Shown in pieces: positions 1-34,540 of a stretch of 64,000 nucleotides of DNA. The stretch comes from Anaerolineales bacterium HSG24 (lineage in GTDB: Bacteria > Chloroflexota > Anaerolineae > 4572-78 > J111). The position numbers were made by a program, and so were the translations under genes. Every line of letters starts with the position of its first letter. The first letter of the stretch is position 1. The notes beneath the pieces were generated by a model. It was not told the origin of the DNA. It did no database searches and was given only the letters and a program-made list of their open reading frames with translations. The stretch lies in NCBI GenBank assembly GCA_030377895.1, contig JAUCGB010000004.1:1-64000 (forward strand). The letters run 5' to 3'.

Positions 1-1093
1 GATAAAGTTGTCCCTCTCGCCCAAATACTTCACCGGAAAAGTAGTTGAATAAGCGTTTTTGGATAAAAGGGCAAGCAAATTTGACATTTTGCTCACTCAC
101 GCTGACCACTTCCACATCAATCACCCCATTCATGTACAAAAAATTGGTATCAGGGTCATCATAACGGAAGGCAAGCTTTTCATCAGTTTGAAACAACTCT
201 AAAAGCAATTGTTTGTGGGGTTCTTGCTTTGCTTTGCTAATTATGTTGAGGATATTGCTGTTGGGCAAGGTGTTAATCGCCAGAGCGTAGGCCATTTCAA
301 AGTCCGGCAGAGTGATACTCGGATTATGCTTATTATAGGTTTCGGTCAGCAATTCACCCAACCAACCCACTAGACCGGGCTGGCCCTGAGTTTCATAAAA
401 AACCCGATTAATGACGACTTGCTCAATTTGTTGCCCACTTTCCCGTTCATACCATTTGAACATCGACTCCACTTCCTCAAAGGTCAAGTTGGGGATATGG
501 ATGCTATGTTGTACATTAAAGGGAGACCCTCTTTTATTTTCCAGACCTAACACCGCCCGCACCCCAATTAGGGCTACACCATGTAGCAAATAATCTCGTT
601 CTCCACTTGGCAGATTGGCTTGTTGATAGCGGCGAAAATGAATGTTTCTGAATGCACTCACGATACCACTGATGGCTTCTGGAATCAAGGCATCAAATTC
701 ATCTAAAATCAGGATGAGTGGTTTCGATAAAACATCTCGTTTAAACAAACTTTCCAAATCTGTTGGCGTTTTAGTTAGACCGAGTTGTTCTAAAATCTCA
801 ACAGTTATTTTTTGCATAATCTCTGTAACGTTGGTTTTCAACTTCAAACTTTCTAAAGGCAAGTGAACCACATCGAAAGCGTCATATTCGGGATCATCTC
901 TTAACCTGAACAATACCTCTCCCATTATCCAAGTTTTACCCCGTTGGCGAGGTGCCCAGATAGTTATGTAGTGTCCGCCTTTTTCCGATTTTTCGCCAAC
1001 TAATTTCAAGATAGCTTTATCTATTAGTTCTTGGCGAGGCACATAATAATGTAAATCGGTATATGGTGAACCATAAGACCAAAATTTTCTCAT
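1..1093 (-). CDS. AAA_35-type ATPase with nuclease tail (partial, 3' end outside window)
   Basis: The gene reads in from the window edge on the minus strand; its ATG is at 1091-1093 (MRKFWSYGSPYTDLHYYVPR) after an AAGGAG motif. About 364 codons are visible, and the C-terminal nuclease part seen in the neighbour is cut off. It is a tandem paralog of the gene at 1134-2717, aligned without net gaps at an offset of 1624 bases. The N-terminal half is nearly identical. The part nearest the window edge is more diverged, with one patch (about 80-125) that differs almost completely. The P-loop region (PRQRGKTW) and Walker B (LILILDEFD) are present. The function is unknown; a role in conflict or nucleic-acid binding is only inferred from the nuclease domain of the paralogs. 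Confidence 0.85.
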   Translation of the reverse strand, partial: MRKFWSYGSPYTDLHYYVPRQELIDKAILKLVGEKSEKGGHYITIWAPRQRGKTWIMGEVLFRLRDDPEYDAFDVVHLPLESLKLKTNVTEIMQKITVEILEQLGLTKTPTDLESLFKRDVLSKPLILILDEFDALIPEAISGIVSAFRNIHFRRYQQANLPSGERDYLLHGVALIGVRAVLGLENKRGSPFNVQHSIHIPNLTFEEVESMFKWYERESGQQIEQVVINRVFYETQGQPGLVGWLGELLTETYNKHNPSITLPDFEMAYALAINTLPNSNILNIISKAKQEPHKQLLLELFQTDEKLAFRYDDPDTNFLYMNGVIDVEVVSVSEQNVKFACPFIQKRLFNYFSGEVFGREGQLY

Positions 1094-1133
1094 TGCAATT
1101 AATCTCCTTATATATACTTCCTAACTTCCTTCC

Positions 1134-2717
1134 TTATCCTGTCACCACAAAAACAGGCTCAACTGTAATGCCGGTGTCTTCATCGGTATGAATTGTTTCA
1201 TACTTCTTGCGGTTGGCTTCATCCACCTGTTCTATGAATAAAACCAGAGTTACCTCTTTCAACTTCAATTTTTTGCCGTACCGAGCCGCCTGATCTAAGC
1301 CCTTATTGTACTCATAATCATCCACAAAACTTTTTACTTCCAGAGCATATTCCTTACCTGCGTAGCGAATAATCAAATCTACCTGTCCATTCCCGGTGGG
1401 AAATTCCGGCCAGACCTGCCCCCCACGTCGCCGCATGAAACGGTCTAAGTAAATGTATAAGTTAAAGTGGTAAACTGCCTCGTACAAGCGTAAGTCTTTA
1501 CGTCGGGGGGCATCTTGCAAGAGCCAATCTTTGTTTTTGTGGATGTAAGCCTCGTGCAGTTTCAAAAGATTTTTTATATTTAAGTCGTTTTCAGTGATAG
1601 TTTGGCTCAAATCAGTAAAGGGGGGATAAAGTTGTCCCTCTTGACCAAATATTTCACCGGTAAAGTAGTTGAATAAGCGTTTTTGGATAAAAGGACAAGC
1701 GAATTTGATATAACGTTTGGTTTCATCTTCTATTTCTTGGTCAATCACTCCATTCATGTACAAAAAGTTCGTGTCCGGGTCATCATAACGGAAGGCAAGC
1801 TTTTCATCGGTTTGAAACAACTTCAAAAGCAACTGTTTGTGGGGGTTTTGCTTCGCTTTGCTAATTATGTTGAGAATGTTGCTATTGGGTAAAGCATCCA
1901 CAGCCGCAGCGTAGGCAATTTCAAAGTCCCGTATGGTGATACTCGGATTATGCTTATTATAGGTTTCGGTCAGCAATTCGCCCAACCAACCCACAAGACC
2001 GGGCTGGCCCTGAGTTTCATAGAATACCCGATTAATGACGGCTTGCTCAATTTGTTGCCCACTTTCCCGTTCATACCATTTGAACATCGACTCCACTTCC
2101 TCAAAGGTCAGGTTGGGGATATGGATGCTATGTTGTACATTAAAGGGAGATCCTCTTTTATTTTCCAGACCTAACACCGCCCGCACCCCAATTAGGGCTA
2201 CACCATGTAGCAAATAATCTCGTTCTCCACTTGGCAGATTGGCTTGTTGATAGCGGCGAAAATGAATGTTTCTGAATGCACTCACGATACCACTGATGGC
2301 TTCTGGAATCAAGGCATCAAATTCATCTAAAATCAGGATGAGTGGTTTCGATAAAATATCTCGTTTAAACAAACTTTCCAAATCTGTTGGCGTTTTAGTT
2401 AGACCGAGTTGCTCTAAAATCTCAACAGTTATTTTTTGCATAATCTCTGTAACGTTGGTTTTCAACTTCAAACTTTCTAAAGGTAAATGAACCACATCGA
2501 AAGCGTCATATTCGGGGACATCTCTTAACCTGAACAATACCTCTCCCATTATCCAAGTTTTACCCCGTTGACGAGGGGCCCAGATAGTTATGTAGTGCCC
2601 GCCTTTTTCCGATTTTTCGCCAACTAATTTCAAGATAGCTTTATCTATTAGTTCTTGGCGAGGCACATAATAATGTAAATCGGTATATGGTGAACCATAA
2701 GACCAAAATTTTCTCAT
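1134..2717 (-). CDS. AAA_35-type ATPase fused to PD-(D/E)XK-like nuclease domain
   Basis: This is a 527-residue soluble protein. An N-terminal ATPase domain has a P-loop of the form APRQRGKTW (residues about 47-55, first Gly replaced by Ala) and a Walker B strand LILILDEFD near residue 125-135. A middle helical region contains the motif YETQGQPGLVGWLGE. The C-terminus has the PD-(D/E)XK pattern GNGQVDLII then ALEVKSF, with Asp and Glu-x-Lys in place. The start is supported by AAGGAG upstream. It is one of three paralogs in the window (1-1093 and 32948-34540). Such proteins are common in Chloroflexota and cyanobacteria; their substrate is not established. The domain calls are confident, the biological role is not. 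Confidence 0.88.
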   Translation of the reverse strand: MRKFWSYGSPYTDLHYYVPRQELIDKAILKLVGEKSEKGGHYITIWAPRQRGKTWIMGEVLFRLRDVPEYDAFDVVHLPLESLKLKTNVTEIMQKITVEILEQLGLTKTPTDLESLFKRDILSKPLILILDEFDALIPEAISGIVSAFRNIHFRRYQQANLPSGERDYLLHGVALIGVRAVLGLENKRGSPFNVQHSIHIPNLTFEEVESMFKWYERESGQQIEQAVINRVFYETQGQPGLVGWLGELLTETYNKHNPSITIRDFEIAYAAAVDALPNSNILNIISKAKQNPHKQLLLKLFQTDEKLAFRYDDPDTNFLYMNGVIDQEIEDETKRYIKFACPFIQKRLFNYFTGEIFGQEGQLYPPFTDLSQTITENDLNIKNLLKLHEAYIHKNKDWLLQDAPRRKDLRLYEAVYHFNLYIYLDRFMRRRGGQVWPEFPTGNGQVDLIIRYAGKEYALEVKSFVDDYEYNKGLDQAARYGKKLKLKEVTLVLFIEQVDEANRKKYETIHTDEDTGITVEPVFVVTG

Positions 2718-4771: not shown

Positions 4772-4800
4772 TTGACATGGCGTAAAATTCAGTTTATACT
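4772..4800 (+). promoter_or_regulatory. Sigma-70-like promoter upstream of the ATPase/TOPRIM cassette
   Basis: TTGACA at 4772-4777 and TATACT at 4795-4800 are separated by 17 bases, a near-consensus arrangement. The rest of the 4667-5031 gap holds no convincing gene. If used, this promoter gives a leader of about 220 bases before the gene at 5032. Confidence 0.6.
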
Positions 4801-5031
4801 GGGCGCATAGAGTAGTTGGGGGAGTGCAGCATAAGACCGCTAATCCAGTTGACGCGAATGAGTCACTTCCAAAATGGTATCTCTTTTTGACTCAAGAGTT
4901 CTCTTACGAGTGATAATTCGCGGGCTTTTTGATTGGCGGTCATATCCCCCGAACCATTACCTGCACCTTGCAAACTTAACCGTTTTTGTGTTACCATGTT
5001 ACAATAATTCATCGTACCCAAGGAGCAGGTT

Positions 5032-5510: not shown

Positions 5511-6566
5511 ATGGAACTCAAATCACTGATATATCATGATATAGTTTGGAACTGGCAACTCAATAAGGTTGACTTTACCGATTTAACTCTTTTGGTCGGG
5601 GCTTCGGGGGTTGGCAAGACGCTGATTATTGAAGCCATTGTTGACCTACAACATGTCGTTATGGGGCAGAATCGGGCCGGTTTGTCATGGGAGGTTGAGT
5701 TCTCCATTGACGGGCGTGCCTATCACTGGTTGGGACAGTTTGCGGAAACTTCACATACGGCTGTTACAGAAATCTTGAACGAACAGTTATTTATTGAGGA
5801 AAAGTTGTGGTTGGATAGAACGACCTCAAACCATAAATTTAATAACAATCACCAAAGCCTACTTTACTTGCTCCGAAACGATACAGAGATTGATTCAATA
5901 TATAAACATTTTCGATATGTGATGTACAATACGTGGCCTTCGCAGACCCATGTTTTTGAGTTAAGTAAGCGAGATGTTCAGGCTGATGAATATCCAACAG
6001 TTCAGGAAATTCGGCATATTGCTGAGGACAATACACTCTTAAAGTTGTGGTTTGCTTACACCAATCAATTACCTGTTTTTCAACAGATAAGAGAAGATTT
6101 TATGGAGATATTTCCCACAGTTCAAGATGTTCTGGTTATGAAAACCGAGCAGAGTCCGCATAACTGCATCGAATTTTCCATTAAAGAAGCCCATGTTACC
6201 AACTGGATACCGGGAGAGCGGGTTTCGGCGGGCATGTTCAAGGTACTCATGTTCATTACCGACATGTATCTTGCACCTGACGATGCTGTCATTTTGTTGG
6301 ATGAGTTTGAGAATAGTTTGGGGGTCAATTGTATCGAAATTGTAAATGAGATGGTATTAAAAAGGCGGAGACTACAATATATTTTCACCAGCCATCATCC
6401 CTATATCATCAACGATATTCCCATGCCATGTTGGCGGATTGTCACCCGTAAAGGTAACACGGTCACAGTTAACCATCCAGATGACTATAAATTGGGGAAA
6501 TCTAAACACACTGCCTTTAAGCAACTCCTGCAACTAGATGAGTTTGAGGATGGTCTGACTCGATGA
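5511..6566 (+). CDS. OLD/SMC-like AAA ATPase (AAA_21 type)
   Basis: A 351-residue ABC-fold ATPase. Walker A is GASGVGKT (residues 30-37), a short signature-like segment is GERVSAGMFK, Walker B is AVILLDEFENSLG (near 260-272), and the H-loop is IFTSHHPYIIND. The short insert between the two ATPase halves is typical of stand-alone AAA_21/OLD proteins and too small for an SMC coiled coil. It overlaps the next gene by four bases (ATGA at 6563-6566). The ATPase plus TOPRIM arrangement recalls PARIS (AriA/AriB), Gabija and OLD-type anti-phage systems. The defence role is inferred, not shown. Confidence 0.85.
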   Translation: MELKSLIYHDIVWNWQLNKVDFTDLTLLVGASGVGKTLIIEAIVDLQHVVMGQNRAGLSWEVEFSIDGRAYHWLGQFAETSHTAVTEILNEQLFIEEKLWLDRTTSNHKFNNNHQSLLYLLRNDTEIDSIYKHFRYVMYNTWPSQTHVFELSKRDVQADEYPTVQEIRHIAEDNTLLKLWFAYTNQLPVFQQIREDFMEIFPTVQDVLVMKTEQSPHNCIEFSIKEAHVTNWIPGERVSAGMFKVLMFITDMYLAPDDAVILLDEFENSLGVNCIEIVNEMVLKRRRLQYIFTSHHPYIINDIPMPCWRIVTRKGNTVTVNHPDDYKLGKSKHTAFKQLLQLDEFEDGLTR

Positions 6567-7255
6567 ATCTCTATTTTCTGGTTGAAGGCAAGCTCGAATC
6601 GAAGCTATATCCAAAATGGTTGAGTTATCTGTTACCGGAACTACGGCAGGTGAAACATTTTGATGCGGTTACTTCCAATAGCTATTACCTTTTTAATGCG
6701 AAGGGGTATCCTAAAATCACAGAAGAGGACTTGCCCCATGCCATTGCAAATGTCAACAATATCGGTTTGTACGACTATTTGATACTCTGTTTTGATGCAG
6801 ATGAGGATACGGTTGAAGCGCGTCAACAAGATGTGTATAACACGTTGACAAAGCAGAAGATTGATTTGCCTATCGCCAAACTAGAGATTGTAGTGCAGAA
6901 CCGTTGTGCCGAAACATGGTTTTTGGGTAACCGAAAATTTTATAAACTAACGCCTGAAGACGCTGATTTACGTGCTTATACCATGTTTTACAATGTGGCT
7001 GATAATGACCCTGAATTAATGCCCAAGCATGAACAATTTCACACTATTCAGCAGTTCCACAAGGCTTATTTTAAGAGATTGTGTCAAGAACGCAAGGTTC
7101 GCTTTTCTGAAAAACTCCCAGGACCTGTACAAGAAGAAGCTTATCTGAAGCAACTTATAGCCCGTGTTGATGAAACAGCGCACTTAAACACGTTTCGTCA
7201 TTTTTATGATTTGTGCCAACGGATTAAACAAGATTCTCAGTACCCGACATTATGA
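6563..7255 (+). CDS. TOPRIM-like effector protein partnered with the upstream ATPase
   Basis: A 230-residue protein. The N-terminus FLVEGKLESKLYPKW carries the Glu of a TOPRIM-like motif (VEGxxE), and LILCFDADEDT carries the acidic DxD-type motif. The segment VVQNRCAETWFLGNRKF resembles the central part of DUF4276/RloB-like families. No transmembrane segment is seen. The ATG overlaps the stop of the ATPase gene (ATGA), so production is coupled. By analogy with AriB and OLD-family TOPRIM domains it may be a nuclease released or activated by the ATPase. I could not place it in a single named family by eye. Confidence 0.75.
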   Translation: MNLYFLVEGKLESKLYPKWLSYLLPELRQVKHFDAVTSNSYYLFNAKGYPKITEEDLPHAIANVNNIGLYDYLILCFDADEDTVEARQQDVYNTLTKQKIDLPIAKLEIVVQNRCAETWFLGNRKFYKLTPEDADLRAYTMFYNVADNDPELMPKHEQFHTIQQFHKAYFKRLCQERKVRFSEKLPGPVQEEAYLKQLIARVDETAHLNTFRHFYDLCQRIKQDSQYPTL

Positions 7256-11708: not shown

Positions 11709-11941
11709 TCATCCAGTTCTAGCTCATCTTTTGCTAACTGGTCAAGAGAAACATCAAACAAATGAGAGATTTTAAGCAACATAGCCAAGTTGGGTATTTT
11801 CTTACCTTTTTCCATTCGCCCCACATAACTACCGCTGACATCAAGAGCCTCACCAACCTCACCCTAAGGTTAGGCCAGATTTTCGTCGTAAAGCAAACAG
11901 TTTTTCTCCAAGTCGAAACGCGCAACTTATTTAGGACTCAT
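11705..11941 (-). pseudogene. XRE-family HTH regulator, frameshifted
   Basis: Read on the minus strand, the pieces MSPK, then SCAFRLGEKLFALRRKSG, then EVGEALDVSGSYVGRMEKGK and IPNLAMLLKISHLFDVSLDQ lie in different frames. Together they make a typical helix-turn-helix regulator of about 78 residues ending in DELELDE. Two one-base changes are needed: one missing A near 11930 and one extra base near 11868. The gene shares the terminator region with the convergent TerD gene. It looks like a decayed regulator; repeated sequencing error is the alternative. Confidence 0.75.
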
Positions 11942-12032
11942 TGCTAAACTTCTGTCGAATTTTAGCAATCTATAAAGTTTGACAAGCCGTCTGTTCTCCC
12001 TATCATGGGGATGTATCTTTTCAGGAATAAAC

Positions 12033-12114
12033 GGTAGTGGTGCAGATGTAGTGATCCGGAGTGCAGGCAAAGCAAGCTTTGCACTCCGAAATTCATTACT
12101 TGTGCAGGAGTACC
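12033..12114 (+). mobile_element. Family B MITE, copy 1 (82 bp)
   Basis: The ends are GGTAGTGGTGCAGATGTAGTG-like on the left and the imperfect inverted form ending GCAGGAGTACC on the right. The centre is a stem of GGAGTGCA and TGCACTCC type. It lies 14 bases ahead of gatC and shares its architecture with 43259-43351 and 61541-61627. No target duplication is visible at this copy. Confidence 0.75.
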
Positions 12115-12128
12115 GCTCGATTAACTAT

Positions 12129-12419
12129 ATGGCAAAGTTAACGATTCAGGATGTGGAAACGATTGCTGATTTGGCGAAATTGACTCTGACCGAGCAAGAA
12201 AAAACGATGTTTCAGGAGCAGTTATCGGCTATTTTAGGATATGCCGAGATGATTCAGCAGTTAGACACGACCGACGTTCCACCCATGACCAGTGCCATCC
12301 CCCTACACAATGTAATGCGGGTGGATGAGCGACAGATTAGCCTTAGCAATGAAGAAGCGTTGGCAAACGCACCGCAAGCCGGAGACGGTAGTTTTAAAGT
12401 TCGAGCCGTTCTCGACTAA
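12129..12419 (+). CDS. gatC: Aspartyl/glutamyl-tRNA amidotransferase subunit C
   Basis: A 96-residue protein, the usual GatC length: MAKLTIQDVETIADLAKLTL at the start, the helix ILGYAEMIQQLDTTDV, and the tail MRVDERQISLSNEEALANAP to DGSFKVRAVLD. The frame is open further upstream, but that part is encoded by the family B element and does not resemble GatC. The ATG at 12129 is therefore chosen even though no strong Shine-Dalgarno is visible. It stabilises the GatCAB complex that amidates misacylated Glu-tRNA(Gln) and Asp-tRNA(Asn). gatA follows after 26 bases; gatB is not in the window. Confidence 0.95.
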   Translation: MAKLTIQDVETIADLAKLTLTEQEKTMFQEQLSAILGYAEMIQQLDTTDVPPMTSAIPLHNVMRVDERQISLSNEEALANAPQAGDGSFKVRAVLD

Positions 12420-12445
12420 ATCTTTCTCTATCAGGAGCTTAAATA

Positions 12446-13909
12446 TTGGAACTGTACAAACTCACAATTCATGAAGCACAAGAAAAACTGCGCTACGGCG
12501 ACATCAGTTCGGTTGAGTTGACCGAAAGCGTCCTCGAACAGATTGAAGCGGTTGATGGTCAGGTGCGGGCCTATATCAGCACCCAACCAGAGTTGGCCTT
12601 GCAAATGGCTCGTTTTGCCGATGAGCGCAGGGCCACAGGTGAAGATAACCCGCTGTTGGGGATTCCGATTGGAATTAAGGACGCGATTGTGACACATGGC
12701 GTAACCACCACCGCCGGGTCGAAGATTCTAGAGAACTTTGTCCCGCCGTATGATGCTACTGCGGTGGCGAAACTGCGTCAAGCCGGAGCGGTTTTCGTCG
12801 GCAAATGTAACACCGACGAGTTTACGATGGGGTCATCCACTGAACATTCGGCTTTTCATCAGACCAACAATCCATGGGATTTGAATCGAGTTCCCGGTGG
12901 CAGTAGTGGCGGTAGTGCCGCGGCCACCGCGGCTTATGAAGCTCTGGCGGCATTAGGCACAGATACCGGCGGCAGTATCCGTCAGCCAGCCTCCTTTTGT
13001 GGCGTGGTCGGCTTAAAACCGACCTACGGACGGGTCAGTCGATATGGGCTGATTGCTCATGGATCTTCGTTAGACCAGCTTGGCCCACTGACCCGCGATG
13101 TTGAGGACGCGGCCATCATGCTCGGTTGTTTGGCTGGACATGATCCGCATGATGGGACAACCCTAACCCATGCTGTGCCGGATTATGTAGCCGAAATGAA
13201 ACAGGGTGACGACCTAAAAGGGGTTAAGGTTGGGGTTCCGCAAGAGTATTTTGTTGAGGGGCTTGATCAGGGTGTTTCGGAGACGATTCAAGCCGCTATC
13301 AAGCAACTTAAAACTTTGGGAGCTGAGATTATCGAGGTCTCGTTGCCTCATACCGAATACGGGATTCCGGTTTATTATATGATTGCTACCGCTGAAGCAT
13401 CGGCTAATCTGTCTCGATATGACGGAGTGCGCTACGGTTTGCGGGTTGATGGAGGGGACATGTGGAACACCTTCAATGAGACTCGTGAGGCTGGCTTTGG
13501 CCCTGAGGTCAAACGGCGAATCATGCTCGGTACCTATGCCTTATCTGCTGGATATTATGATGCCTACTACCTGAAAGCTCAGAAAGTTCGCACTTTAATA
13601 CGTCGTGATTTTGAGCAAGCGTTTGAACAGGTTGATGTGATGGTCGCCCCGACCGCGCCAACCGTGGCTTTTGAACTTGGCTCTAAAACTGACGATCCAT
13701 TAGAGATGTATCTGAGCGATACATTCACCATTACCCTGAATTTGGTTGGGGGATGTGGCTTGTCGGTGCCATGTGGTTTCTCTGAGGGCATGCCGGTCGG
13801 TTTGCAGATATTTGGCCCACCACTTGGCGAAAGTGCCATCTTAAAGGTCGCGCATCGGTACGAACAATCGACCAATTGGCATCAGCAGACCCCTTCTGCG
13901 CTAGGCTAA
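12446..13909 (+). CDS. gatA: Aspartyl/glutamyl-tRNA amidotransferase subunit A
   Basis: A 487-residue amidase-signature protein. The catalytic Lys lies in [10 protein letters not shown] (near residue 79), the Gly/Ser-rich stretch is [13 protein letters not shown], and the catalytic Ser is in [15 protein letters not shown]. It releases ammonia from glutamine for transamidation of Glu-tRNA(Gln)/Asp-tRNA(Asn) on GatB. The start is TTG at 12446, eight bases after AGGAG. An upstream ATG is absent in frame. The length matches the family. Confidence 0.97.
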
Positions 13910-15626: not shown

Positions 15627-15671
15627 TAAAAAAAGTCTTACTACCCGACAAAAATTTTAGCCCAGACTAAT

Positions 15672-15884
15672 TACAGTCGTTCAGAAAATAATTTTCAATT
15701 CAAGACCAACCTTCCCGCAAGTTCAAAACTTGCGGGAAGGGGCTATCAACTTAACGTGCGACAGATAATATCGTAACACAGTCTTTAGACTGTGCGGCAC
15801 AGGCTGAAGCATGTGCTACATATCTCGGCTTACGTTGATAGCCCGGGAAGGTAACGACTGAAAATGTTTATCTGAACAACTATA
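15672..15884. mobile_element. Family C element inside family D, itself interrupted
   Basis: The ends TACAGTCGTTCAGA and TCTGAACAACTATA are imperfect inverted repeats. The uninterrupted copy at 63753-63854 aligns in reverse complement. Compared with other family D copies (…ctaattaacacag…), the element enters at TA and leaves TA on both sides, as expected for IS630/Tc1-type movement. The hairpin CTTCCCGCAAGTT/AACTTGCGGGAAG forms the core and is the target of the family A copy. Confidence 0.75.
15741..15843 (+). mobile_element. Family A 103-bp MITE, copy 2 (innermost of the nest)
   Basis: GGCTATCAAC at the left and GTTGATAGCC at the right delimit 103 bp. The exact 8-bp repeat CGGGAAGG flanks it at 15733-15740 and 15844-15851. 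Removing the element plus one repeat restores the intact family C sequence seen at 63753-63854. Confidence 0.95.
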
Positions 15885-32947: not shown

Positions 32948-34540
32948 ATGCGTAAATTTCATTCTTATGAAGAAGTAGATAAAGATATACATTACTATGT
33001 TCCCCGCGAAGAATTGATAAACAAAGCCTACAATAGCCTGTTGGGAGAAGAACCAGAAAAAGGCGGTCATTACATAACCGTATGGGGACCGCGGCAATCA
33101 GGCAAAACTTGGGTTATGCGAGAGGTGGTTGATAAACTCAAACTTAGCAATGATTTTGAAGTGGTTATCTTGACCATGCAGTCTAGTGAGATTACAACTG
33201 AGAAAGCCGTTCTGGAATTGTTAGTTGATGGTCTAACCCATTGGTTCCGGCGAGATTTTCCAAGGGTTGATTCTTGGAAAGAATTGGAACTCCTGTTCTC
33301 GGAAAAGAATTTCAGTAAGCCGTTGATATTGATTTTAGATGAGTTTGATTCTATAGGCCAAGAGTTTATCAACAAGTTTGCTACTGAGTTTCGGAGGCTG
33401 TACACCAGTCGCATGAATGAGAGGCATAAACCGAGTGATGAGAAGTGGTGTCGTTTGCATAGTCTAGCCCTGATTGGAGTGCGGAGTGTGTTAGGTATTG
33501 AGAATGTCAGCGGCTCACCCTTCAATGTGCAACGGAGCATGCCGATTCCAAACTTGACTTATGAGGAGGTTGATTCCATGTTCCATTGGTATGAACGGGA
33601 GAGTGGTCAAACGGTGGAGCAAGTCGTGATAGACCAAGTATTCTACGAGACACAGGGGCAACCGGGTTTGGTCGGTTGGCTAGGTGAGCAGTTGACCGAG
33701 GATAGATTCAATAAAGAGCGCACCAAGCCGATTGACTTACCCTTTTTTGAGAATGTTTATGGCGCGGCTCTGCATATCTTACCCAACAACAATATATTGA
33801 ACCTGATTAGCAAGGCCAAGCAAGAGCCGTATAAAGAGGTGGTGCTAGAGTTGTTCAATACAAAGAAAAAGATGTCCTTCAGTTATGATGATGAACTGTT
33901 GAACTATCTTTATATGAATGGTGTTGTTAGTTGGGAGCAGGAGAAAATCGGTAAATATTACGCTAAATTTCCGTGTCCTTTCGTGCAACAGCGGATATTC
34001 AACGCCTTCGCTAGAAATATGTTCCGTCATATCATCCAGGTGTATGACCCCTTTGATGATTTGTCTGACACCATCACCGATAACAGCCTGAACGTAGCCA
34101 ACCTGATGCGCCGCTATGAGACCTATCTGCGACAGAATCGAGAATGGTTATTGAAGGACGCTCCTCGCCGCAAGACCGATGACCGGATTATGGAGGCAAC
34201 CTACCATTTCAATCTGTACCTTTATTTACAAAGTTTCTTCTATGATTACGACAGTTTGATACACCCAGAATTCCCGACCGGTAACGGCAAAATAGACCTC
34301 ATCATTAAGCATGGTAGTCAGACTTATGGCTTGGAGGTGAAGAGTTTCTCAGGGCAACGGGGCTACGACAAGGCGTTGATCGATGCGGCTAAATACGGCA
34401 AACAATTGGCTTTAGCAGAAATATCACTGATATTTTTCTGTGAGCATATCACCGATGAGAATCGGAAAAAATATGAGAAACAGTATCAGGATGTAACAAC
34501 AGGCGTAATCGTTGAGCCTGTCTTTGTGGTGATTGGGTGA
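32948..34540 (+). CDS. AAA_35-type ATPase with PD-(D/E)XK-like domain, third paralog
   Basis: A 530-residue protein preceded by AGGAGAT and a TATAAT box at 32931-32936. It follows the same plan as the pair at 1-2717: P-loop WGPRQSGKTW, here with the full Gly; Walker B PLILILDEFDS; YETQGQPGLVGWLGEQL in the middle; and a nuclease motif FPTGNGKIDLII with YGLEVKSF at the end. Identity to the others is clearly lower than between those two. It sits on the plus strand between hisA and hisF, which are on the minus strand, so it is likely an insertion into a former his operon. The substrate is unknown. Confidence 0.88.
   Translation: MRKFHSYEEVDKDIHYYVPREELINKAYNSLLGEEPEKGGHYITVWGPRQSGKTWVMREVVDKLKLSNDFEVVILTMQSSEITTEKAVLELLVDGLTHWFRRDFPRVDSWKELELLFSEKNFSKPLILILDEFDSIGQEFINKFATEFRRLYTSRMNERHKPSDEKWCRLHSLALIGVRSVLGIENVSGSPFNVQRSMPIPNLTYEEVDSMFHWYERESGQTVEQVVIDQVFYETQGQPGLVGWLGEQLTEDRFNKERTKPIDLPFFENVYGAALHILPNNNILNLISKAKQEPYKEVVLELFNTKKKMSFSYDDELLNYLYMNGVVSWEQEKIGKYYAKFPCPFVQQRIFNAFARNMFRHIIQVYDPFDDLSDTITDNSLNVANLMRRYETYLRQNREWLLKDAPRRKTDDRIMEATYHFNLYLYLQSFFYDYDSLIHPEFPTGNGKIDLIIKHGSQTYGLEVKSFSGQRGYDKALIDAAKYGKQLALAEISLIFFCEHITDENRKKYEKQYQDVTTGVIVEPVFVVIG

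Follow-up and report, generated by a model that had tools for sequence, protein, structure and literature searches.

The window analysed here is a stretch of 64,000 nucleotides at the start of a contig from Anaerolineales bacterium HSG24, and at its beginning lie two closely spaced, co-directional genes, termed copies A and B (Table 1). The last 163 residues of copy A fall outside the window, so that comparison of A with B is limited to residues 1-364 and excludes the nuclease part. The motif AAGGAGATTAATT occurs upstream of both copies. A third, divergent paralogue is encoded on the opposite strand further into the window.

Table 1. Features of the two tandem copies and the third paralogue, and residue limits of within-genome islands of raised silent divergence (C followed by a number, contig of a family member)
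Feature	Residues	Bases in window	Strand	Remarks
Copy A	1-364	2-1093	-	First 364 residues; truncated at the 3′ end by the contig start (C184)
A module V2	246 to contig end	2-358	-	Diverged from B
A variable patch	327-337	83-115	-	
A module V1	61-180	554-913	-	Homogenised with B
Spacer		1094-1133	-	40 bases, B stop to A start; AAGGAGATTAATT ahead of A start
Copy B	1-527	1134-2717	-	Full gene, 527 residues; AAA_35 ATPase, winged helix and predicted PD-(D/E)XK nuclease
B predicted PD-(D/E)XK nuclease domain	376-527	1137-1592	-	
B nuclease residues	D447, E460, K462	1332-1379	-	
B module V2	246-375	1593-1982	-	Winged-helix region; diverged from A
B variable patch	327-337	1707-1739	-	Tip of predicted wing hairpin
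B AAA ATPase domain	1-252	1962-2717	-	Structure model, Pfam match, invariant columns
B module V1	61-180	2178-2537	-	Nearly identical to A
Third paralogue		32948-34540	+	530 residues; 53% identical to B
V1 island, C128 pair	50-170			
V1 island, C122/C129	82-131			
V1 island, C22/C126	59-166			
V1 island, C22/C109	44-177			
V1 island, C71/C22	84-162			
V2 island, A/B	270-342			
V2 islands, C53 pairs	249-352; 250-366			
V2 island, C126/C109	231-297			
V2 island, C71/C126	232-321			

These genes have many relatives. The HSG24 genome contains 18 family matches at E 1e-3 or better, one of them a partial match at 27%, and at 1e-10 the number is 17; a congener, G001, has 22, genomes G002, G021 and G054 have nine, ten and one, respectively, and several of the matches are fragments. 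The family is thus present in five of 61 genomes, HSG24 counted, and absent from 56; within the order it occurs in four of 25 genomes at 1e-30, again counting HSG24, and in an even sample of 400 genomes of the phylum in HSG24 only. The stretches covered gave 52 family ORFs, of which 45 were aligned, leaving out seven short, cut or broken ones. Close co-directional tandem pairs comprise A/B, a pair on C128 (C128a and C128b) and two pairs on C53, and on C34 two neighbouring members are distant from each other.

The structure model of B (pLDDT 86) consists of an ATPase at residues 1-252, a winged helix at about 262-357 with its wing hairpin at 325-339, and an α/β C-terminal domain. The sequences APRQRGKT (residues 47-54) and ILILDE (127-132) and the stretch at 237-239 we take to be the Walker A, Walker B and GxP-like motifs. 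Both copies pass the 27 bit cut-off of AAA_35 (PF14516), B with 33.9 and A with 35.6, and 44 of the 45 aligned members match it at E 0.01 or better. To our knowledge no function is attached to this 'AAA-like domain' family, and the literature searched apparently holds nothing about the function of AAA_35 proteins.

The C-terminal domain was also modelled alone (pLDDT 89). The best matches of the nuclease domain model are McrC (Z 8.6 over 121 residues), EcoT38I (8.2) and EcoRV (7.7), Z scores barely above the level that the tool calls common, and Foldseek gives E 0.0023 at best. A D...ExK arrangement is the catalytic signature of the PD-(D/E)XK nuclease superfamily, and residues E413, D447, E460, K462 and Y480 are invariant in all 44 aligned nuclease domains, a set from which eight of the 52 family ORFs, cut or broken ones with copy A among them, were left out. 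The model, taken together with this signature, points to a restriction-endonuclease fold. PDDEXK_9 (PF08011) is matched at E 0.01 or better by 29 of the 44 domains, B not being one of them, and by 13 of the 45 whole proteins.

Superposition of the ATPase and winged helix on PABY2304 (PDB code 2QEN) gives a Z score of 16.5 and an rmsd of 3.6 over 295 residues; the values are Z 15.1 over 297 residues for SSO1545 (2FNA), 16.4-16.8 over 237-251 residues for Orc1/Cdc6 proteins and 15.7 over 300 residues for plant NLRs. STAND/NLR-like ATPases carry a GxP motif after the ATPase core plus a winged helix. The family has both features, with G237, P239 and L241 invariant and the predicted fold in agreement, and the stretch G237-L241 aligns with GLPLAL of Roq1, though that part of the alignment scores below zero. 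PABY2304 and SSO1545, in our understanding archaeal Walker-type ATPases of STAND-like type, resemble B in ATPase and winged helix, residues 2-350 and 1-349 superposing; identity is however 12-16%, and chains of 350-352 residues match only residues 1-350 of B, the nuclease lying outside the match. The Orc1/Cdc6 and plant NLR ATPases belong to the same fold class, but their sequence match to the family is weak (best E 0.0015-0.0019) and the family has a fused nuclease. The Orc1/Cdc6 profile TIGR02928 is matched weakly by 16 of 45 members (best E 4.7e-5). Those NCBIfam profiles that the family matches at E 0.01 or better give weak scores throughout (best 7.1e-7), and B has none at 0.01, hence the profiles do not identify it as an Orc1/Cdc6 initiator.

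A preliminary description of the locus, made from the sequence, noted that A and B align without net gaps at an offset of 1624 and that their divergence is uneven. Both observations are borne out: the first 750 bases account for 16 of the 73 differences in 1093 aligned bases and the remaining 343 for 57, and the longest exact run common to the two copies is 205 bases. A 12-residue patch reported as nearly unrelated, DVEVVSVSEQNV against DQEIEDETKRYI, is indeed present, with two of 12 residues identical; in this region it is copy A that deviates when compared with B and two relatives from G001. Among codons for the same amino acid, silent changes affect eight of 219 as far as residue 231 and 23 of 110 from there on, a contrast as extreme in three of 10,000 permutations, and pS is 0.079 for residues 1-60, 0.049 for 61-180, 0.122 for 181-245 and 0.415 for 246-364. 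Since the contrast holds at silent codons, the uneven divergence between these duplicates is best explained by recombination. The comparison of all three paralogues that had been suggested, made in 40-residue blocks, gave no such mosaic for the third copy against either A or B.

How general is the pattern? All pairs of 36 members were compared, and those with at least 150 codons for the same amino acid and a segment with no more than 15% silent change were kept. Sixteen pairs qualified, 12 within and four between genomes. An island of raised silent divergence, at eight or fewer of 300 permutations, is present in 11 of the 12 within-genome pairs, and ten of these islands lie in V1 (about 44-177, in the ATPase) or V2 (about 231-366, in the winged helix), limits drawn after the pairs had been viewed and from pairs that are not independent. 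The eleventh, which appears when the second gene of one C53 pair is set against that of the other, covers residues 12-222 in a reversed pattern with V2 the similar part, and C71/C109 has no significant island (58 of 300 permutations). In the C128 tandem pair three of 125 silent codons are changed in V2 as against 34 of 74 in V1. Subfamily IV contributes only C122/C129, the one pair of the 15 among its six members that is similar enough for the test. The between-genome islands are C120/C57 297-522, C71/C128a 230-523 and C128a/C16 287-326; the first two reach from V2 across the nuclease, so that exchange is not confined to V1 and V2. The orthologue pair C204/C24 is even (150 of 300), a weak control with only 12 silent changes in 497. 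Profiles of third positions overstate silent divergence where amino acids differ, and the silent-codon test is the more trustworthy. The mosaic is therefore general in the family and not peculiar to A and B, and that it arose by recombination we regard as very likely.

Trees of separate segments were compared in two other subfamilies, II (nine genes) and III (seven genes), A and B lying outside these tests; the prefix g denotes a gene of G001. In subfamily II the V1 tree joins C128b to g16 at 100/100 and rejects a clade of the C128 pair (lnL 99.5 lower, AU p 1.2e-5), whereas the tree of residues 185-527 unites the C128 pair at 100/100 and rejects C128b with g16 (p 7e-34). V1 supports {C70, g126, g109} (100/100), {C21, g22} (99/98) and, weakly, {C128a, g71} (78/82). 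V2 (246-340) supports {C128a, C128b} (100/100), {C70, g71} (95/99) and {g126, g16} (88/89), all three of which V1 rejects; conversely, V2 rejects the V1 groups {C70, g126, g109}, {C128a, g71} and {C128b, g16}, but not {C21, g22}. A further candidate V2 group, {g109, g22, C21}, is absent from the V2 tree, yet is not rejected (p 0.44). The C128 pair survives in the nuclease tree, which rejects {C70, g71} (p 0.005), {g126, g16} (p 1e-4) and the four V1 groups (p ≤0.02). In subfamily III the C53 tandem genes group within pairs for N+V1 (100/99, 100/100) and for the nuclease (94/96, 77/87); for V2 first genes group with first (93/95) and second with second (66/67), and AU rejections run both ways between within-pair and across-pair groupings. 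These conflicts assign separate histories to V1, V2 and nuclease, and the modules of subfamily II are, judging by the trees, reassorted.

Third-position distances bear on the timing. The two C128 genes are 0.02 apart in V2 and 0.08 in the nuclease, and in V1 C128a is 0.17 from G001 C71 and C128b 0.35 from G001 C16; the low values set against those of V1 make the homogenisation recent. The V1 types seem to predate the divergence of HSG24 and G001, whose genomes share 85-87% identity in a gene cluster nearby.

The preliminary description had read the A/B mosaic as gene conversion in the ATPase part with diversification of a C-terminal specificity region. The first half of that reading stands: gene conversion or an equivalent recombination has homogenised the N-terminal part, as attested by the signal at silent sites, its recurrence in other pairs and the conflicting trees in the two other subfamilies. 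Active diversification finds no support. Divergence of V2 between A and B is of a purifying kind (dN 0.107, dS 0.603), and in residues 231-364 the copies are still each other's nearest relatives, with 31 sites for AB|XY against nine and four for the alternatives, which rules out a G001 gene as the closest relative of either V2. Mapped on the predicted structure, the patch occupies the turn of the wing hairpin between strands 325-329 and 335-339; given this position and a length that varies across the family, it may be a loop under little constraint. Of all stretches, residues 81-120, the most variable of the family, bear the closest resemblance to a specificity region; they lie inside the ATPase, at a place where A and B do not differ.

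Median dN/dS values (NG86) are 0.10 for V1 (10 pairs), 0.13 for V2 (nine pairs) and 0.06 for the nuclease (23 pairs). Positive selection was considered and rejected, segment medians ranging from 0.06 to 0.18 with none near 1; the highest value for a single pair is 0.69, in residues 1-60. Among 25 close relatives the most variable ten-residue block is 101-110 (2.38 bits). In six proteins of G002 and G021, genomes that provided no island pair, variability is highest in V1 (0.39), with 0.27 in V2 and 0.28 in the nuclease; since V2 does not exceed the nuclease in this respect, it is recombination, not variability, that speaks for V2. In the archaeal regulator Orc1-2 the available text places Walker A K72, the initiator-specific motif G127-L128 and Walker B E154 in this order, and attributes specific DNA binding to this motif acting jointly with the winged-helix residues R381/R383 (PMC9738581). 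Spacing from Walker A and B puts the equivalent of the motif at residues 105-108 of B, inside block 101-110, by matching of position with the motif itself unaligned. The position of the motif thus coincides with the V1 peak of the family.

What do these modules do? Homologous recombination between paralogues, whether gene conversion or unequal exchange, has made parts of the genes uniform, and V1 (the ATPase segment that follows Walker A and ends near residue 180) and V2 (the winged helix) repeatedly stay different or are swapped as modules; A and B are a case of V2. A and B stand in tandem within an enlarged family of stand-alone ATPase-nucleases, in which V1 and V2 together would form a two-part recognition surface. 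The trigger might be a foreign protein or some feature of DNA, its sequence or its structure, and could provoke an ATP-dependent rearrangement or oligomerisation by analogy with Orc1/Cdc6 and NLR ATPases; the C-terminal nuclease would then be free to cut DNA, and defence against DNA invaders is the most plausible purpose. Copies in tandem or scattered over the genome would in this way offer many recognition variants on one maintained enzyme. Taken whole, this scheme of a recombining family with recognition modules and an ATP-switched DNA nuclease is the explanation that we favour by a little. For its parts, the chances that V1 and V2 are recognition modules are in our judgement evenly balanced, and a role in defence is a tentative proposal that falls somewhat short of even.

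The strongest competitor is neutral, divergence-limited conversion, whereby segments under weaker constraint drift past a similarity threshold and escape, producing islands in the same places with no role in recognition. The dN/dS of V1 and V2, slightly above that of the nuclease, is what this would predict, as are the lack of any sign of positive selection and a patch that is a length-variable loop. The contradictory groupings of V1 and V2 argue instead that modules were exchanged and not merely left behind, and V1 types have been inherited across two genomes (third-position distances 0.17-0.35) even as the remainder of the C128 pair became uniform. Module exchange and V1 inheritance are nonetheless compatible with neutrality, which we consider rather unlikely. 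If it is correct, the family provides a clear example of segment-limited concerted evolution.

The favoured function has also to be set against a housekeeping or regulatory one, in which the protein is a DNA-binding ATPase-nuclease, an Orc1-2-like regulator or a factor in maintenance of mobile DNA. The fold, the weak sequence likeness to Orc1/Cdc6 and the occurrence of relatives in 13 of 72,556 plasmid records agree with such a role; patchy spread, many copies and catalytic residues kept in 44 of 44 domains make it unlikely. The plasmid relatives, among the eight of 13 records listed, cover 88-91% of B in Pseudanabaena, Marinitoga, Haliscomenobacter, Brasilonema and Fischerella, and several are annotated as AAA-like domain proteins. 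A phage origin was rejected: a search of 50,697 phage records gave no match, and viral contigs yielded a single 22% relative (one of 61 pattern stretches).

Clustering of 392 ORFs around the family loci suggested no conserved operon partners. It gave seven clusters of at least three, the large ones being the family itself and a cluster of 35 members, with four to seven members in the other five; neighbours are not shared beyond these, and the context thus carries no defence signature. The flanks of A and B have only scattered matches in G001, among the best matches listed, which speaks against an insertion site common to the two genomes. Beside the G001 gene resembling hisA (hisA and hisF are the names presumed for genes at these loci) an unrelated ORF stands in place of the third copy.

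Comparison with known defence systems gave weak matches. In PADLOC B has only AbiEi at E 0.018 and nothing at 0.01; PDC-S01 is matched by 16 of 45 members (best 8.9e-5) and LmuA by seven (best 1.6e-5), and the DS8 profile is likewise matched by seven of 45 (best 2.7e-5), B not included. On these values the proteins fit none of the models of known anti-phage systems in PADLOC or DS-8. A candidate defence pair is located 3 kb from A and B, and the best plasmid relative adjoins type I restriction genes; with patchy spread and stand-alone copies these are weak leads for defence.

Two explanations fare worst. That the ATPase part was converted while a short C-terminal specificity patch came under diversifying selection, as first proposed, would account for the two identities in 12 and the silent mosaic; it is very improbable in view of dN/dS medians far below 1 at the level of whole segments, a patch that is a predicted wing turn, and a most variable stretch that lies in the ATPase. 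Equally improbable is an assembly artefact, chimeric contigs stitched from similar paralogues or strains, which an assembly of 206 contigs at 75% completeness with copy A running into a contig end might invite, for six of seven pairs in the separate G001 assembly also carry silent-divergence islands, and the V1 sequences of the two C128 genes match separate genes of G001, hardly the outcome of random stitching.

In type I restriction systems the specificity subunit HsdS carries two target-recognition modules, which recombination shuffles on a scaffold that is itself conserved. Shuffling of V1 and V2 may be likened to this by analogy only, with no claim to homology, the neighbourhoods having been compared for recurring gene clusters only. 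A stronger version would make the family a single-protein restriction-like system in about 20 genomic copies, with V1 and V2 as specificity modules shuffled by recombination, one at the Orc1 initiator-specific position in the AAA ATPase and the other in the winged helix, on a motor and nuclease kept uniform by conversion. This reading, modules and system together, we think quite unlikely; were it true, it would amount to a recombining receptor repertoire in a bacterium.

Recombining families of ATPase-PDDEXK architecture are already known. The Cardinium DUF1703 family (PF09820 with PDDEXK_9) has 25 paralogues in one genome and frequent intragenic recombination (Siozios et al. 2019, PMC6387759, as far as the available text goes). 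It is alike in joining an ATPase to a PDDEXK nuclease, in its many paralogues and in intragenic recombination, but the ATPase is of another family, and that article reports a lack of apparent homogenisation, the same portion of its text describing no recurrent module limits (PMC6387759). Neither A nor B matches PF09820 even at E 1, while six of 45 members do at 0.01, so that A and B do not belong to DUF1703 as defined by PF09820 plus PF08011. Literature searches on gene conversion and antiphage systems, on expansion in Chloroflexota and on archaeal ATPases turned up, among the matches listed, none recognised as the same case, and the term 'gene conversion' is absent from the available part of an eLife 2020 paper on conflict systems (PMC7159879). 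A recurrent two-module pattern on a homogenised scaffold was not found in the literature searched, though it may still have been published.

Should V1 and V2 be recognition modules, HSG24 and G001 would provide ready-made sets of paralogues whose main difference lies in a single module, and would allow one to ask what a bacterial STAND-like ATPase-nuclease recognises. It would also raise the question of whether bacteria keep recombining repertoires of immune genes as plants do with NLR genes. An example of such a set is the C128 pair, which differs in V1 with some difference ahead of it.

The family member on contig C120 of the congener genome G001 (11718-13316) and that on contig C57 of the HSG24 genome, G000 (12197-13894), are similar up to residue about 297, beyond which there is strong divergence through to the end. 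Silent codons are changed at 64 of 131 positions in the diverged C-terminal part, as opposed to 31 of 282 elsewhere. This pattern resembles what replacement of the C-terminal half would leave. On contig C126 of G001 (72585-73791, locus L078) a broken second tandem copy, consisting of two separate ORFs, lies behind an intact copy.

The divergent third copy in the window (32948-34540, plus strand) is flanked on each side by a minus-strand gene, and we take these neighbours to be hisF and hisA. The hisA-like gene of G001 has an unrelated neighbour at the corresponding place, suggesting that the third copy has been gained or lost.

Upstream of both genes of the subfamily II tandem pair on contig C128 of G000 (L052), TTCGCCCA-like octamers precede a TATAAT-containing leader; other subfamily II loci in both genomes also carry such octamers and the common leader. 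A pattern search for two octamer units gave 10 matches in G000 and 0 for the reversed control.

The ATPase gene and its partner (see table) overlap on the same strand and are a candidate defence pair, proposed from sequence matches, 3 kb away from the tandem paralogues A and B. The short dispersed repeats may be mobile miniature elements or similar.

Coordinates and matches of neighbouring genes and repeats in the window
Feature	Position	Strand	Matches
Short dispersed repeat	about 4800-4967		about 17 occurrences among G001 matches listed
ATPase gene	5511-6566	+	PADLOC: AbiLi (E 7e-20), AriA (E 2e-13)
Partner gene of ATPase	6563-7255	+	HEC-01B, weak (E 0.00099)
Short dispersed repeat	15671-15740		about 30 occurrences among G001 matches listed
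Short dispersed repeat	15844-15884		about 20 occurrences among G001 matches listed

The best plasmid relative, on Marinitoga okinawensis plasmid pMO1 (L112), shares 29% identity over residues 1-480. Genes annotated as type I restriction-modification lie about 0.7 kb from it.
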